From Chloroflexota bacterium (GTDB lineage: Bacteria; Chloroflexota; Anaerolineae; Anaerolineales; UBA11579), in assembly GCA_018662365.1 (NCBI GenBank), contig JABJGH010000065.1:24154-88153 (forward strand): DNA of 64,000 bases. The letters are read 5' to 3'. Of the stretch, positions 38,926 through 46,194 are shown in pieces (position 1 is the first letter of the stretch; the number at the start of each line of letters is the position of its first letter). The notes below the pieces were generated by a model. The model had not been told where the DNA came from. It saw only the letters and a list, made by a program, of their open reading frames with translations, and ran no database searches. Position numbers and translations under genes: made by a program.

Positions 38926-40302
38926 ATGCCAAAATATGTACCAGAACCCTTCAAAATCAAAATGGTGGAACCCATTCGCTTGATCTCGCCGGAAAAGAGA
39001 GAAGCTGCTATAAAAAAGGCAAACTATAACCTTTTTGCAATGAAAGCAGAGGACATATTTATTGATTTTATGACTGACTCCGGTACTTCGGCGATGAGCA
39101 ATCATCAGTGGTCTGCGATGATGATGGGAGACGAATCTTACGCTGGTGCCCGGTCTTGGTTTAGGCTAAAAGAGGTTGTTGACGAAATATTTGGGTTCAA
39201 GCACTTCGTCCCCACCCATCAAGGTCGTGCCGCAGAAAATATTTTAACAAATCTCCTCGTACAACCTGGTGAATACATCCCCTCGAATATGCATTTTGAT
39301 ACCACCGAAGGAAACATTCGTGCCCGGGGCGGGCGTCCAAAAAATCTAGTTAGAAAAGAAGCCTACAATCCCTCTGAAAGAGTTGATTTTAAGGGCAATA
39401 TGGACATCGAAAAACTTTGCTCTTTTATTGAGAATACCGGGGTTGAGAATATACCCTTTGGCATGCTCACAATTACGAACAATGCTGGTGGTGGTCAACC
39501 TGTATCGATGCAAAATATTAAAGCGGTTTCTGAGCTATATCATGAATTTGGCTTACCTTTCTTCATTGATGCCTGCCGTTTTGCAGAAAATGCCTATTTC
39601 ATTAAACTTCGAGAACCTGGTTACGCCGACAAGTCCCCCTTAGAAATTTCTCAAGAAATGTTCTCCTACGCCGATGGAGCCACCATGAGTGCGAAGAAGG
39701 ATGGCATTGTTAATATTGGCGGCTTCCTAGCTATGAACGATGATACATTATTCCAAAATGTTCGAAATGAATTGATCATTCGAGAAGGTTTCTATACCTA
39801 TGGAGGACTAGCTGGCCGAGACCTCGAAGCAATGGCAGTGGGTTTCAAAGAAGCCTTGGAGGTTAGTTATCTTGATTATCGCCTTGCCCAAACCGCCTAT
39901 TTGGGGGAAAGGTTAATTGAAAAGGGTATCCCGATCATAGAGCCTCCCGGTGCACATGCGATCTATATCGATGCTAAGAGTTTCTTGCCACATATTCCTC
40001 AGGCTGAACTACCCGGTCAATCCCTTTCAATCGCGATGTATAAACAGGGCGGTATTCGGGCTGTTGAACTAGGAACCGTTGCCTTTGGTTATACAGACCC
40101 AGATTCTGGGGAAGAAATTTTCCCTGAATTAGATATGGTTCGCATGGCTATTCCTCGCAGAGTATACACCCAAAGCCATATGGATTATGTCGTAGATGTG
40201 TTGACGGAGATCGCCGAAAATCCTCAGGCTTTAAAAGGATATAAGATCACTTACCAACCCCCCCTAATGCGTCATTTCACTGCACATTTCGAACCACTAT
40301 AA
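38926..40302 (+). CDS. tnaA: Tryptophanase (tryptophanase/tyrosine phenol-lyase family)
   Basis: DFMTDSGTSAMSNHQWSAMMMGDESYAG; FVPTHQGRAAENIL; MSAKKDGIVNIGGFL; GIRAVELG resembles the TnaA RAVEIG segment. Confidence 0.85.
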   Translation: MPKYVPEPFKIKMVEPIRLISPEKREAAIKKANYNLFAMKAEDIFIDFMTDSGTSAMSNHQWSAMMMGDESYAGARSWFRLKEVVDEIFGFKHFVPTHQGRAAENILTNLLVQPGEYIPSNMHFDTTEGNIRARGGRPKNLVRKEAYNPSERVDFKGNMDIEKLCSFIENTGVENIPFGMLTITNNAGGGQPVSMQNIKAVSELYHEFGLPFFIDACRFAENAYFIKLREPGYADKSPLEISQEMFSYADGATMSAKKDGIVNIGGFLAMNDDTLFQNVRNELIIREGFYTYGGLAGRDLEAMAVGFKEALEVSYLDYRLAQTAYLGERLIEKGIPIIEPPGAHAIYIDAKSFLPHIPQAELPGQSLSIAMYKQGGIRAVELGTVAFGYTDPDSGEEIFPELDMVRMAIPRRVYTQSHMDYVVDVLTEIAENPQALKGYKITYQPPLMRHFTAHFEPL

Positions 40303-40362: not shown

Positions 40363-43170
40363 TTATTTTATTTTATTTAATTCTTCACCAAATACATTTA
40401 GGGCTTCATAATAAGGGAGGATGCTGGGAATATAATGTCTTTCATTTGCCGCATGAGGACCCAATCCGCTTTGACCCCATACAATTCCTTGTCCATTTGG
40501 CGCAAATCGAGCACTTGTCCCAGCCAATTTTCTCCCGATCTTTGGCTCTTTATTGGATATCATTTTTATTCCGGCCAATAAAGCTTCTAAATAGGGGTTA
40601 TCTGGATCGCAGGCAACCCCATTTTCAAAGTTTTGTGCTTCAAAATTCAAGCCCGCGTTTTCACAATACTTCTCCACATCCTGTCTGAAGGCGTACAAAT
40701 CGTCCTGTGGTATCGACCTAATTTCCATACCCATCTTCCCAACTTCCGCAGTAATATTGTAAATACCAGGGGTTCCCACCTCTATAAAAGGGAATCGAAG
40801 TTGAGAATGCCAGCCATCCTCACTTTCAAGTTTTAGATAATTTTCGCTAATTTTTTTAATATCACCTTGCGCTTTAACCAAACACTCCCCAACACCCACC
40901 TGGGCTCCTGCAACTCCGCTATGGCCTTTTTCCCCATGGGCAACGATCTGAGCTCTTGCCAAACCTCTATTTTGAATATCCACCGTTCCCCAAATATTCT
41001 CTCCACTAATTTCCGTTCGCTCCCCAGCAATAAATAATTTTGGTTCGTACCCGCTTTCCGCCTTCAAGATATCAAGCACAAAAGAGGAACCATATTTATC
41101 CATTTCCCCATTTTCTTCGTTTCCAATGAGAAGCAAACACACAGGCGGAGGGGGTCCCCCTACTTTTAGGATATCTTTCATCCAAACCATATAGGTCGCC
41201 ACAACTGTTTTCATATCCCCCGTCCCACGCCCTACAAAATAATCACCTTCAATCCTCGGAATAAATTGAGTATCATCTGGTTCAGGTTCAACGACATCAA
41301 AATGACCAGATAACATTACGGGTGCAACCACCTCGGGTGTAAATCCAGCAAGGATAGCCGGGTATTTTTCATCCTCAAAAACTCGAACATGTACCCCAAC
41401 ACCTTCAAGATATTCCTTGATTAACAAATAAGCCTTTCGTACTTCAGATAATCGCTCTGTTGGGCTGGCGGTCACTGAAGGAATTTCAACCAAACTTTTA
41501 GAAAGTTGGAGGATTTCAATCGTTTTTTGAGGAAGGTTTTCATTTTCTAAAGTAAATGCTGACTTTTCGGCACTTTCTATTTGATTGATCTCAACCATTA
41601 AACCAATTTTCTCAATTTCACTTTCTGCAAGATTGGAAATAGTAGGGATTATTTGATCCATATCATTTTGAATGGATTTTTTCCTATTTTCCACAAGATT
41701 TTTGAGCAGTTCTAATGGAACCTCATCCTCATCCCCCATCGCTGCCTTAAGCTCTGTCCGAATCTGATCAGCAGTATTAGGTGCACCCTTCGCCATTTCG
41801 ACCAAAGGTTGTAAATCCCCCCATAACCCTAATGCTTCGGCCAAAGGTTTCACCTCATTGATCGACCAAGATAGAAATTCTCGCATTTGGATCGGTTTTC
41901 CTGTGATCGGGTTTTCAATTTTAGACCGTAATCCATCTTTTGCTGCAGAAATTTCATTTCGCCTAACTCGCTCAATATCTTCGTTATCATATCTAAATCC
42001 CCTACAAAAGGTCTTGTCAGCATACATTCTCAATAGCAACAAATGCTTCAAGGTCAAATTTGCCAATTCCAACGACATTGAACTCCCACCGTCATCTGTA
42101 CGAATTTCTACTCTGGACATCGGTATTTTTATTCGAGTAAGAATGTTTTCCATCTCAACACGGGCTGCAACCTCATCAATAGGATGCTCTTCACTTCCGA
42201 TTGCATAGAGACCACGGGCATATAATGCTTCCAATTGATCATTCGTAATCTCGATCTGCCGCTCAACAGATTCTGCAAAAGAGCGGGCTCTGACAGGGCT
42301 CCAGTTGTTGTTCCCGAACCGTACGCCTCGTCTCACCAGATCAAATGAAGTATCCACATAATCCTGATGGCTACGATATAAGTTTGGAAGATCCATCGTA
42401 TCGGGGTTTGGAAAGGTCAAATTCCTTATCGAATCATATTCGGTTAATATCACAACCGGTTTTCCATCTCTTTCTTGTGCTTGCATCGGAGTTGAAGCCC
42501 CAGCCGCAATAAACATCGCAGAAAAAGCCCGCATCAATCGGGTCGCAGTGATATAGACCTGATTGAAATACTCATCTCTTCCCCCGTTATTTCTTTGATG
42601 TTGGGGAAGGTGCAAAAAATCCCAGTCGATCAATGGCTCCGGCAAAGATAAATTTACATGGTTCCCCGTGGTTGCCATCGAAACCCCATATAGATCTATA
42701 CATCGTTCAAGATATCTACGTTTGGCAAGCCCCATACTAATTGGGATCGACTCATGATCTACTTCGGTTAGATATAACAAATTACCATGCCAAGCGTGCA
42801 GGGGTTGGTTAAATTCCTCGCTAATCTTATCTAACGATTTTAAGAAAATCGATTCGATAAATCTTGCCTCATAAACTGCCCCTTTTGGGCTGTAATAGGG
42901 CCTCCCCATCATTTCAATCATCCAATGGAATATTTCTAGCGTGCTTAATTCTCGAATACGAGGATCCATATGCTTATCACGCAAATATTCAACAAAAGAT
43001 TTTCGCGTTGAACCTGCCCCTACCGTCAATAAGGGTTTCATCCCCTGATCTAAAAGGTTCCATTCTAGCTCGAAACCGCATATACCCTTTTCAGGCATCT
43101 CAGTTAATGCGGTTTCTAAAGCTAGTTGGTATTTGTCTACAAACTTTGTGAGCTCAAAATCCGATACCAT
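40363..43170 (-). CDS. Fusion: glutamate-cysteine ligase-like (GCS) domain + M20 family metallopeptidase
   Basis: N-half: GFELEWNLL, TGNHVNLSL, AAGASTPMQAQ, SRVEIRTDDGGSSMSLELANL; C-half: MLSGHFDVVEPE, YFVGRGTGDMKTVVA, LLIGNEENGE, GPHAANERHYIPS. Confidence 0.85.
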   Translation of the reverse strand: MVSDFELTKFVDKYQLALETALTEMPEKGICGFELEWNLLDQGMKPLLTVGAGSTRKSFVEYLRDKHMDPRIRELSTLEIFHWMIEMMGRPYYSPKGAVYEARFIESIFLKSLDKISEEFNQPLHAWHGNLLYLTEVDHESIPISMGLAKRRYLERCIDLYGVSMATTGNHVNLSLPEPLIDWDFLHLPQHQRNNGGRDEYFNQVYITATRLMRAFSAMFIAAGASTPMQAQERDGKPVVILTEYDSIRNLTFPNPDTMDLPNLYRSHQDYVDTSFDLVRRGVRFGNNNWSPVRARSFAESVERQIEITNDQLEALYARGLYAIGSEEHPIDEVAARVEMENILTRIKIPMSRVEIRTDDGGSSMSLELANLTLKHLLLLRMYADKTFCRGFRYDNEDIERVRRNEISAAKDGLRSKIENPITGKPIQMREFLSWSINEVKPLAEALGLWGDLQPLVEMAKGAPNTADQIRTELKAAMGDEDEVPLELLKNLVENRKKSIQNDMDQIIPTISNLAESEIEKIGLMVEINQIESAEKSAFTLENENLPQKTIEILQLSKSLVEIPSVTASPTERLSEVRKAYLLIKEYLEGVGVHVRVFEDEKYPAILAGFTPEVVAPVMLSGHFDVVEPEPDDTQFIPRIEGDYFVGRGTGDMKTVVATYMVWMKDILKVGGPPPPVCLLLIGNEENGEMDKYGSSFVLDILKAESGYEPKLFIAGERTEISGENIWGTVDIQNRGLARAQIVAHGEKGHSGVAGAQVGVGECLVKAQGDIKKISENYLKLESEDGWHSQLRFPFIEVGTPGIYNITAEVGKMGMEIRSIPQDDLYAFRQDVEKYCENAGLNFEAQNFENGVACDPDNPYLEALLAGIKMISNKEPKIGRKLAGTSARFAPNGQGIVWGQSGLGPHAANERHYIPSILPYYEALNVFGEELNKIK

Positions 43171-43182
43171 AAAACCATCACC

Positions 43183-44499
43183 TTATTTTTCTAAAGCTTT
43201 TAGCCCTTCAATAAGTCTCTTAGCCGCACCTATAGTCCGTTCGGCTGGGGTCGCATAAGAATATCTGATCCAATCCCCGCCAAAGGAGGAGAAAAAGGAA
43301 CCAGGTACCACTGCAAGCCCATGGGCTTCAGCTAGGTACTGCCCCATTTCTTCGGTGTCTGCCCACCCCTTTGCATTTACCCACTGACCGACGTTAATAA
43401 AGGCATAATAGCCTTTCCCAATGATATACTCAAAACCATTTTCGTCAAGAAAACTTTTCAATACATTCCTGCTCGCATTGGTGGGCTCCACAATATTTCG
43501 ACAAGCCTTTGCATAACCCATTTCATATGCAGCTTGAGCAACCGACAAAGAAAAATAAGGCGGGATCACATTATGCGAGGCTCGGGCAACAATAAATTTG
43601 GTCACTTCTTCAGAAGCGATCAAATGCGCTGAACGAATATTGGAAGCCCCTAAACTTTTGGTCAATCCATCCATCACCATGATGCGTTGTCTTTCTTCTG
43701 GTGCAAACATTCCCAAAAATTTATTTAAATCCATTGGCGCTTCATCAGTCACGTAATGGTAGATCCAATCAAACAGAACAAAGGCAACGCCATTTTCTAA
43801 AGCAAATCGTCCCAATTCTGCCTGTTCTTCCATCGAGATCGTCCGGCCCGTAGGATTATCTGGGCAGGTAATCACCAATCCAGCAATTTTTCGCCCTGAT
43901 TTTGCCGCCATATCGACGCAAGCCTTAATTCCCTCTGTCGTATATTTCCAACCTTCCTCAGGTCTACCGGGGGCCAACATTACATTTGCGCCAATGCCAT
44001 AGGGACCCCAGTTATAGGAGATCCAAGGAACTCTAGAGACGACAATAAAATCTCCCACCTGACCCGTGCCAAGGTTCAACATTGCCTGGTAAGCTTTTAC
44101 TAAAGCATCGCGCCCCCCCACCGTGCCGGTAACATTTGCAGGACCAAACCCCAAGGATGAGTCTATTTGCCAATAATTTTCTACGACAACTTCACGGAAT
44201 TTGGGGGTGCCAAAAGGCATATCATAGCCTGTACCATGCTCGAATTGAAGTTCAGCCGCCCTTTGCAAAATTTCAGGTGCCACGCCAGGCAAACTTGCCC
44301 CACCATCTCCCTGGGAGGCATCAAATATCGCTTCTCCTGGGTAATTGTCTTGGTATACCTTAAGTGACTTTTTGATCAAGAACATTCTTGATGGCGGAAT
44401 AGTAGCCAAAGAATTCAAATGATCACTGACCGGCACTAAATTGCCCTCGGGCACTACATAGGCGGGGGTTTCGGGTGATAAATCTGTTTTGCTACTCAT
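43183..44499 (-). CDS. PLP-dependent class I/II aminotransferase
   Basis: TCPDNPTGRTISMEEQ; FDWIYHYVT; DGLTKSLGASNIRSAHLI (PLP Lys); start trimmed from track 44520. Confidence 0.92.
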   Translation of the reverse strand: MSSKTDLSPETPAYVVPEGNLVPVSDHLNSLATIPPSRMFLIKKSLKVYQDNYPGEAIFDASQGDGGASLPGVAPEILQRAAELQFEHGTGYDMPFGTPKFREVVVENYWQIDSSLGFGPANVTGTVGGRDALVKAYQAMLNLGTGQVGDFIVVSRVPWISYNWGPYGIGANVMLAPGRPEEGWKYTTEGIKACVDMAAKSGRKIAGLVITCPDNPTGRTISMEEQAELGRFALENGVAFVLFDWIYHYVTDEAPMDLNKFLGMFAPEERQRIMVMDGLTKSLGASNIRSAHLIASEEVTKFIVARASHNVIPPYFSLSVAQAAYEMGYAKACRNIVEPTNASRNVLKSFLDENGFEYIIGKGYYAFINVGQWVNAKGWADTEEMGQYLAEAHGLAVVPGSFFSSFGGDWIRYSYATPAERTIGAAKRLIEGLKALEK

Positions 44500-44589
44500 T
44501 TTTCTCCTCTTTAGAATCATTCATAATTTGAGAATCTTTTTGAAAAAGGTACTCTCAATTAATTAGGTGATTCCATCCTAGTATAAAGA

Positions 44590-44612
44590 AAACGCCCCAA
44601 ACGGGGGCGTTT
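44590..44612 (-). terminator. Terminator downstream of mazG
   Basis: AAACGCCCC-caaac-GGGGCGTTT stem; minus strand tail TTTTCTTT. Confidence 0.8.
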
Positions 44613-44733: not shown

Positions 44734-46194
44734 TCATTCCCCTTTCTTACTCTCTTCCCAAATCGCATCCATTTCTTCCAAACTTAGATCGGAAAGTTCT
44801 TTCCCCTGCCCCTTCGCTGTAGCCTCAATTACTGCAAACCTTTTTTTGAATTTCAGATTTGTTTCTCTTAAGGCTGTCTCTGGGTCAACATCTATCCAAC
44901 GTGCAAGATTTGCAACTGCAAATATCAGATCTCCGATCTCCTCGGCTTTTTCTTCAGGGTTTTCTGCATCCTCAAATTCTTTGATCTCTTCCATTATCTT
45001 GTCAAAGACACCATCGATTTCCGGCCAATCAAACCCCACCCTGGCCGCTCTTTTCTGATACTTATCCGCAACTGCCAGCGCAGGCATATCTGTCGGCACA
45101 CCATCTAATATCCCCTTTTCCTCATCCCCATTGTCTGATCGTTCTTCAGCTTTGATCTTCTCCCAGTTCTTTAATACCACGTCGGGTTCCAAAGATTCTA
45201 CATCCTTAAACACATGTGGATGCCGCCTCACTAATTTATTATGAATGCCCTTGATAATACTTGACATATTAAATTCACCATACTCGGAAGCGATTTGGGC
45301 ATGTAAGACAATTTGAAGTAAAAGATCCCCAAATTCCTCTTCCATTTCCTTGGGGGCGTCATGATCTATGGCATTGAGTACCTCATAGGCTTCTTCTAAG
45401 AGGTTTGTACGCAGGCTTTGATGAGTTTGTTCTCTATCCCACGGACAACCCTCTGGAGAGCGCAAATGAGCGATCAGTTCCTGAAAGTCTTCAAAGGAGG
45501 TATTATCTCCCAATGGAGGGATAAATAACGAACTCAATAATCCAATATACTCACTTTGATCAATTTCATATAACTTCAATTCTTCCAATTGGGCATCATT
45601 CGTTCCAGCCCCATGCACAAATCGAACAGGATGTTCATCAGGATATAAAGCCATCAGAGTTATTTTTAATTCTGAAGCAATCTCTTTGGAATGGACCTGG
45701 GCAATTAGGGCTGGCACACTTGGGGGAAAAGAGGGATGATGGGCCATCACCATCTCATGGGCATCCACCATAGTGAGCTGTGGCAGCGGGTCAACCCCCA
45801 AGCTTGCTAAAACAGGTGCCAAAAAACTAATTCCTTCAACAATTCTTGTCTGAATCCCCTGTTCTTTTGCCTGCCGAAAGATCTCAGGGCCGGTGGTCTC
45901 TGCAATAAATGGATGACCTGGAACAGCATAAACAACCCCCTCTGGTCGTTTCCCCAATTCAATAATCTCTTTAATTATTTCCGCATAGACATCTTCAAAT
46001 TTTTCTTTTTCTTCATAGACCAAATCGAAAGAATACACCTTTAGGTCTTTTGGAAAACCTGCTATTGTGGGATGCTGACTTGTCCGTACATAAACCTCAT
46101 CAACAGTCTCGAGGATCTGCCATGCTTCCCTTGTGAGGTGTTTTGGATCTCCAGGGCCTAATCCCAACAATATGATCCCGTTTTTTTCTTCCAT
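44734..46194 (-). CDS. mazG: Tetrapyrrole methylase-domain + MazG nucleoside triphosphate pyrophosphohydrolase fusion
   Basis: N-terminal LLGLGPGDPKHLTREAWQIL; C-terminal LRSPEGCPWDREQTHQSLRTNLLEEAYEVLNAID. Confidence 0.93.
   Translation of the reverse strand: MEEKNGIILLGLGPGDPKHLTREAWQILETVDEVYVRTSQHPTIAGFPKDLKVYSFDLVYEEKEKFEDVYAEIIKEIIELGKRPEGVVYAVPGHPFIAETTGPEIFRQAKEQGIQTRIVEGISFLAPVLASLGVDPLPQLTMVDAHEMVMAHHPSFPPSVPALIAQVHSKEIASELKITLMALYPDEHPVRFVHGAGTNDAQLEELKLYEIDQSEYIGLLSSLFIPPLGDNTSFEDFQELIAHLRSPEGCPWDREQTHQSLRTNLLEEAYEVLNAIDHDAPKEMEEEFGDLLLQIVLHAQIASEYGEFNMSSIIKGIHNKLVRRHPHVFKDVESLEPDVVLKNWEKIKAEERSDNGDEEKGILDGVPTDMPALAVADKYQKRAARVGFDWPEIDGVFDKIMEEIKEFEDAENPEEKAEEIGDLIFAVANLARWIDVDPETALRETNLKFKKRFAVIEATAKGQGKELSDLSLEEMDAIWEESKKGE

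Follow-up and report, generated by a model that had tools for sequence, protein, structure and literature searches.

The window analysed here is a stretch of 64,000 nucleotides from contig JABJGH010000065.1 of a Chloroflexota bacterium of the order Anaerolineales. Its minus strand carries a two-gene module, a class I pyridoxal phosphate (PLP) aminotransferase followed by a single polypeptide in which a ligase of predicted glutamate-cysteine ligase (GCS) fold is joined to a hydrolase of the M20 family. Open reading frame (ORF) calling agrees with a preliminary description of the window, which had placed a 935-residue fusion at 40363-43170 with the aminotransferase 12 nt upstream on the same strand. 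That description gave the gap correctly but started the aminotransferase at the second ATG, 44499, whereas the ORF reaches 44520. The sequence motifs that it quoted are all present in the translation. The genes, the halves of the fusion and their motifs are as follows.

43183-44520, minus strand: class I PLP aminotransferase, 445 aa, by ORF calling, with an alternative ATG at 44499
40363-43170, minus strand: fusion protein of 935 aa, with a GCS-fold ligase half and an M20 hydrolase half, in one unbroken frame by ORF calling
41566-43170, minus strand: ligase half, residues 1 to about 535, assigned from AlphaFold2 with Foldseek (GshA, YbdK) and from the NCBIfam YbdK family in 17/17 relatives
43063-43077, minus strand: G-F-E-L-E motif, residues 32-36, aligned with GIELE of YbdK; E34 and E36 100% conserved
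42658-42660, minus strand: ligase histidine H171, aligned with the first H of GQHVHVG in YbdK; 100% conserved
42100-42111, minus strand: V-E-I-R motif, residues 354-357, aligned with VEVR of YbdK; E355 and R357 100% conserved
40363-41550, minus strand: M20 hydrolase half, residues about 541-935, assigned from PF01546, PF07687 and Foldseek
41296-41304, minus strand: metal motif H623-F-D625; H623 and D625 100% conserved
41215-41217, minus strand: bridging aspartate D652, conserved in 100/101 sequences, with one unresolved
41113-41118, minus strand: catalytic E685-E686; E685 conserved in 100/101 sequences and E686 in 101/101

Pfam gave no support for the ligase half of the window protein and no match to PF04107, a model whose cut-off is just reached by a few relatives. 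The NCBIfam ligase matches of the window protein are weak (gshA_cyano, E = 4.4e-4; at most 22 bits against cut-offs of at least 249). All of the 17 aligned relatives match the YbdK-family ligase model (best E = 2.2e-6), and 13 of the 17 match gshA_cyano (best E = 6.8e-9). The AlphaFold2 model of the N-terminal half, built with the 17-sequence alignment, has a pLDDT of 83 and a pTM of 0.89, and Foldseek matched it to GshA (3nzt, E = 1.5e-10) and YbdK (1r8g, E = 8.7e-10; probability 1.0). Residues E34, E36, E86, H171, R249, N289, W290, E355 and R357 are conserved in 99-100% of about 100 related sequences. By its predicted fold and motif residues, the N-terminal half belongs to the GCS/carboxylate-amine ligase superfamily, as had been proposed earlier. 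It resembles YbdK and GshA in fold, in the G-x-E-x-E motif, in the histidine and in the E-x-R motif, but it shares only about 15% identity with them, scores below nearly every curated cut-off and is fused to an M20 hydrolase.

Foldseek also returned PafA (E = 1.8e-6) and Dop (E about 1e-3 to 1e-2). Dop belongs to the same fold superfamily, and the ligase half might, like Dop, have turned into a hydrolase or into a domain that only binds, in which case no amide would be made. The low Pfam similarity over about 530 residues would suit such a change. However, the matches to Dop and PafA are much weaker than that to GshA, and conservation of the superfamily motif residues is complete, so that we regard a Dop-like conversion as highly improbable.

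The hydrolase half is recognised by Pfam, both in its catalytic domain (PF01546, E = 2.3e-14), which bears out the M20 assignment of the preliminary description, and in its dimerisation domain (M20_dimer, PF07687, E = 1.5e-4). With the full-length model, the best Foldseek match was 2rb7 (E = 1.1e-20), and DapE was matched with E = 4.5e-20. Of about 100 sequences, 99-100% retain the M20 residues H623, D625, D652, E685, E686, E717 and H906. The nearest NCBIfam models are DapE and ArgE, yet the scores are 77 bits against a cut-off of 284 for DapE and 45 against 298 for ArgE. From these sequence and structure matches, the C-terminal half is assigned as an M20 hydrolase of the DapE/ArgE type. It is like these deacylases in its predicted fold and in all catalytic residues, and they are among its best matches, but it lies far below their equivalog cut-offs and forms here the C-terminal half of a ligase fusion. 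Since about 100 of 101 sequences keep the motif residues of both halves, both the ligase and the hydrolase activity are probably retained, and the presence of two opposing activities in one chain is probably real.

The aminotransferase matches PF00155 (E = 5e-25) and reaches no NCBIfam equivalog cut-off. Residues K288 (the PLP lysine), N222, D251, Y254, R137 and R419 are conserved wherever the alignment covers them (90-95 rows for K288, R419 and R137). With the PLP lysine, the asparagine, the Asp/Tyr pair and the substrate arginine all in place, the sequence is that of a class I aminotransferase. R419 is at the position that binds the α-carboxylate, and R137 is at what we take to be the position of K109 in the Thermus aspartate aminotransferase, which binds the distal carboxylate. 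The amino donor is probably glutamate.

The retention of these aminotransferase-type arginines bears on a possible thiol function. In this explanation, the ligase would make γ-glutamylcysteine or a close thiol, which would then be processed by the M20 half and by the PLP enzyme acting as a C-S lyase, as EgtA, EgtC and EgtE do in ergothioneine synthesis. The closest folds to the N-terminal half are indeed glutamate-cysteine ligases. However, the hydrolase and the PLP enzyme of the module are of other families than EgtC and EgtE, and no thiol partner gene was noticed nearby, though no search aimed at such genes was made. Together with the arginines, this makes a thiol function quite unlikely.

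The preliminary description had also proposed that the two genes are co-transcribed. Two candidate sites are in keeping with this.

44702-44674, minus strand: promoter-like site upstream of the aminotransferase, TTGACG-17-TATATT, 10 of 12 consensus positions
40347-40314, minus strand: terminator-like hairpin directly after the fusion stop, 15-pair stem and T-rich tail, a consensus match only

The promoter-like site is likewise only a consensus match, and the total of such sites across the DNA is not above that in shuffles. With the sites so placed, the aminotransferase and the fusion probably form one two-gene transcript. Between the promoter-like site and the aminotransferase start there is a GC-rich 9-bp inverted repeat (44590-44612), terminator-like on both strands, which is possibly an attenuator. 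Neither the window nor any of seven related loci gave an Rfam riboswitch match.

A search through about 85,000 genomes of different species confirmed 152 fusion loci, and the best 80 of these are all from Chloroflexota or Acidobacteriota by title. Full-length relatives with 51-56% identity occur within the Anaerolineales, and others occur in Geothrix and other Holophagaceae of the Acidobacteriota. A second, deeper acidobacterial clade also has the fusion, with 42-46% identity in the ligase half. The architecture is the same in about 100 loci across the two phyla, and this conservation of the whole frame rules out a chance fusion. At locus L171 (7346-11503), a single ORF seemed to hold an aminotransferase-ligase-M20 triple fusion; this was rejected as the artefact of a one-base frameshift, since the other frame restores the normal end of the aminotransferase.

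The aminotransferase gene was found in 98 of the 107 loci examined; in the remaining nine, the contig breaks off less than 1.9 kb upstream of the fusion. Where there is enough DNA, the gene is upstream and has the same orientation as the fusion in 98/98 loci, with one outlier at 5.9 kb. The median gap is about 100 nt, and the gap is 30 nt or less in 21 of 80 loci. Among 647 sampled genomes, 41 have both genes, none has the fusion without the aminotransferase, and three have the aminotransferase without the fusion. The aminotransferase is thus present in 41/41 fusion genomes and in 3/606 others (Fisher p of about 1e-61, uncorrected for phylogeny). The linkage expected in the preliminary description is therefore conserved, and the pair is a genuine module. 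The window genome is its sole carrier among 24 sampled members of its family, and no plasmid copies of the module were found. In the aminotransferase tree, the Holophagaceae copies sit among those of Chloroflexota, which suggests that the module has moved between the phyla.

What might be the function of a module with these enzyme families, with intact motif and catalytic residues and with a conserved aminotransferase partner in two phyla? It is probably a self-contained, co-transcribed amino-acid unit with three activities. The reading that we tentatively favour, at less than even confidence, is that a γ-glutamyl-type amide protects a substrate during transamination and is then removed. First, the GCS-fold half would use ATP to acylate the amine of a substrate of the amino-acid type, most likely with a γ-glutamyl group. 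The class I aminotransferase would then exchange keto and amino groups elsewhere on the protected molecule. Finally, the M20 half would strip off the acyl group and free the product. The nearest relatives of the hydrolase half, DapE and ArgE, are N-acyl-removing enzymes, and such a step on a transaminated product is what the scheme calls for. The linkage of fusion and aminotransferase, the retained motif residues of both halves, R419 and R137 of the aminotransferase and the Glu/Asp-family neighbours in single lineages also speak for this reading. It is plausible that the amide made by one half is the one cleaved by the other, that the acyl group is γ-glutamyl and that the steps occur in this order. 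The protect-transaminate-deprotect idea was already put forward in the preliminary description; it is compatible with the enzyme parts, but the order of steps is inferred and two genomes lack the ligase.

In these two genomes, G028 (Chloroflexota) and G698 (Acidobacteriota), the aminotransferase is followed by an M20 gene without the ligase half, and they are the first and chief of several points that weigh against protection and deprotection. They show that the module can sometimes do without a ligase in cis. Both have a separate GCS2 match, strong in G028 and weak in G698 (39.6 bits), but rescue by this protein is a weak argument because five fusion genomes and three others have such a match too. 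Two further genomes, G129 and G293, have the aminotransferase alone. In the aminotransferase tree, G028 and G293 are early branches on the Chloroflexota side and G698 is early on the Acidobacteriota side; G129 is nested within a fusion-bearing clade and likely represents a secondary loss of the fusion. The full-length model of the fusion has a low pTM (0.54) and does not support a channel between the two sites. Apart from the aminotransferase, no gene is conserved beside the module across lineages, and there is no universal kinase, reductase or other pathway gene. Finally, the module is present in two complete, single-contig genomes, G033 and G168, that are without ArgC, ArgH, DapF and ProA, and it therefore restores no known prototrophy.

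Some of these observations are accommodated more easily if the module turns over a γ-glutamyl-type dipeptide or another storage or solute amide. The ligase would make the amide, the M20 half would degrade it, and the aminotransferase would make or consume the free partner amino acid. The partial versions, with aminotransferase and M20 (G028, G698) or aminotransferase alone (G129, G293), would then be a degradative remainder, and the presence of the module in likely auxotrophs such as G033 would fit. A ligase and a hydrolase in one chain also suit a reversible store. However, such a system would have to be regulated so as not to cycle futilely, and no such control can be seen; nor is any transporter or osmotic-response gene conserved near the module. 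We consider turnover, the chief rival to the protective scheme, possible but somewhat unlikely.

The neighbouring genes in single lineages suggest a link to amino-acid metabolism of the glutamate and aspartate families, without agreeing on one pathway. The proB-proA genes adjoin the module in Geothrix and its kin and are confined to the Geothrix/Holophagae clade. There are argG-argH genes near the module in G032 and G045, an aspartokinase gene in G049 and aspartokinase-asd in G028. Such neighbours, the combination of an aminotransferase with a DapE/ArgE-type M20 enzyme and the lack of DapF in nearly all Anaerolineales tested could indicate that the module serves specifically to make lysine/diaminopimelate or ornithine/arginine, in place of DapC-DapE or ArgD-ArgE. 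However, module presence does not track ArgC, ArgH, ProA or DapF, none of which is regularly missing or regularly present alongside it, and the module therefore does not in general replace the synthesis of lysine, arginine or proline. DapF is found in 0/17 Anaerolineales fusion genomes tested and not in G028, but it is missing in Anaerolineales with or without the module and is present in most acidobacterial fusion genomes. Replacement of the lysine/diaminopimelate route was rejected because the absence of DapF in Anaerolineales is independent of the module. A TIGR03540 match in G000 (478 bits) was rejected as DapL because its neighbours form an aroF-tyrA-aminotransferase-pheA operon, which makes it an aromatic aminotransferase. 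Replacement of arginine synthesis was rejected since ArgC and ArgH are not anti-correlated with the module, and a proline link was rejected since most of the fusion-bearing Anaerolineales tested lack ProA. The window genome (94% complete) has argG-argH (locus L195), with no ArgC over the cut-off and no ProA found.

A further argument against a lysine or arginine route comes from the LysW-type genes. A LysX-LysY-LysZ-LysJ-hydrolase operon is present in six fusion genomes (G103, G137, G278, G049, G030 and G045), in the M20-only G028 and in non-fusion relatives such as G058. In the seven fusion or M20-only genomes, it lies on other contigs or far from the module. These operons mostly occur with argG-argH, and several include a 56-aa LysW. 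Because each of these seven has a separate operon that includes a hydrolase, the module is not the LysW pathway, and the earlier analogy with LysX, LysJ and LysK does not extend to membership of that route. The module was likewise rejected as a 'missing LysK', since the LysW-type operons carry an M20-like hydrolase of their own. In the neighbourhoods read, no LysW-type genes are directly beside the module; in G032, the contig with the module also carries LysX-, LysY-, LysZ- and LysJ-like genes, about 14 kb downstream of it. LysW-type operons with LysX, LysY, LysZ, LysJ and a LysK-like hydrolase were seen in Anaerolineales loci L200-L207, L209 and L210. Taken with the lack of tracking, the separate operons make a dedicated lysine or arginine route improbable.

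Convergent with the fusion, at 38926-40302 on the plus strand, is a protein of the tryptophanase/tyrosine phenol-lyase family (PRK13238, 679 bits in NCBIfam) that scores under the TnaA and TPL equivalog cut-offs; it was rejected as a member of the module because it has no linkage to it in relatives. Upstream of the aminotransferase, at 44734-46194 on the minus strand, a tetrapyrrole-methylase domain is fused to MazG-type pyrophosphohydrolase domains.

In the open-licence papers searched, we found no description of the fusion, its aminotransferase partner or its product, and no characterised function of the kind that would have counted against the preliminary description. The component families are known, and the fusion with an obligate aminotransferase partner appears to be undescribed there. 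In two phyla, an enzyme that apparently both makes and breaks amides is invariably tied to one aminotransferase, which is good evidence that a metabolic step has gone undescribed. If the protective scheme is right, it would give a function to a ligase family almost invisible to Pfam and to a deep M20 branch outside the curated models. The module is directly testable because cultured Geothrix species carry it.

How does protection by a γ-glutamyl-type group compare with known systems? The LysW/ArgW pathway (LysX, LysZ, LysY, LysJ and LysK) has the same logic of γ-glutamyl-type protection, transamination and hydrolytic deprotection, but its ligase is of the ATP-grasp type, its aminotransferase is of class III and a carrier protein is needed; moreover, it exists as a separate operon in module-bearing genomes. 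The module could be a carrier-free counterpart, in which one bifunctional enzyme adds and removes a free γ-glutamyl group while a dedicated aminotransferase acts, giving a novel amino acid or cofactor precursor in Anaerolineales and Acidobacteriota; in this specific form we find the proposal rather doubtful. γ-Glutamyl protection, if true, would make the module a simpler relative of the carrier-protein routes to lysine and arginine. The DapC-DapE succinylase branch shares with it a class I aminotransferase and a DapE-type M20 enzyme acting on an N-protected amino acid, but there the protecting group comes by transfer from succinyl-CoA (DapD) and not from an ATP-dependent ligase, and DapF is absent in most module-bearing Anaerolineales genomes. 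The PuuA/PuuD pathway, to which the preliminary description had also likened the pair, shares γ-glutamylation followed by hydrolysis. However, PuuA is of the glutamine-synthetase type, PuuD is a hydrolase of the class I amidotransferase fold and no M20 enzyme takes part, so that the module, with its different folds, does not belong to that pathway.

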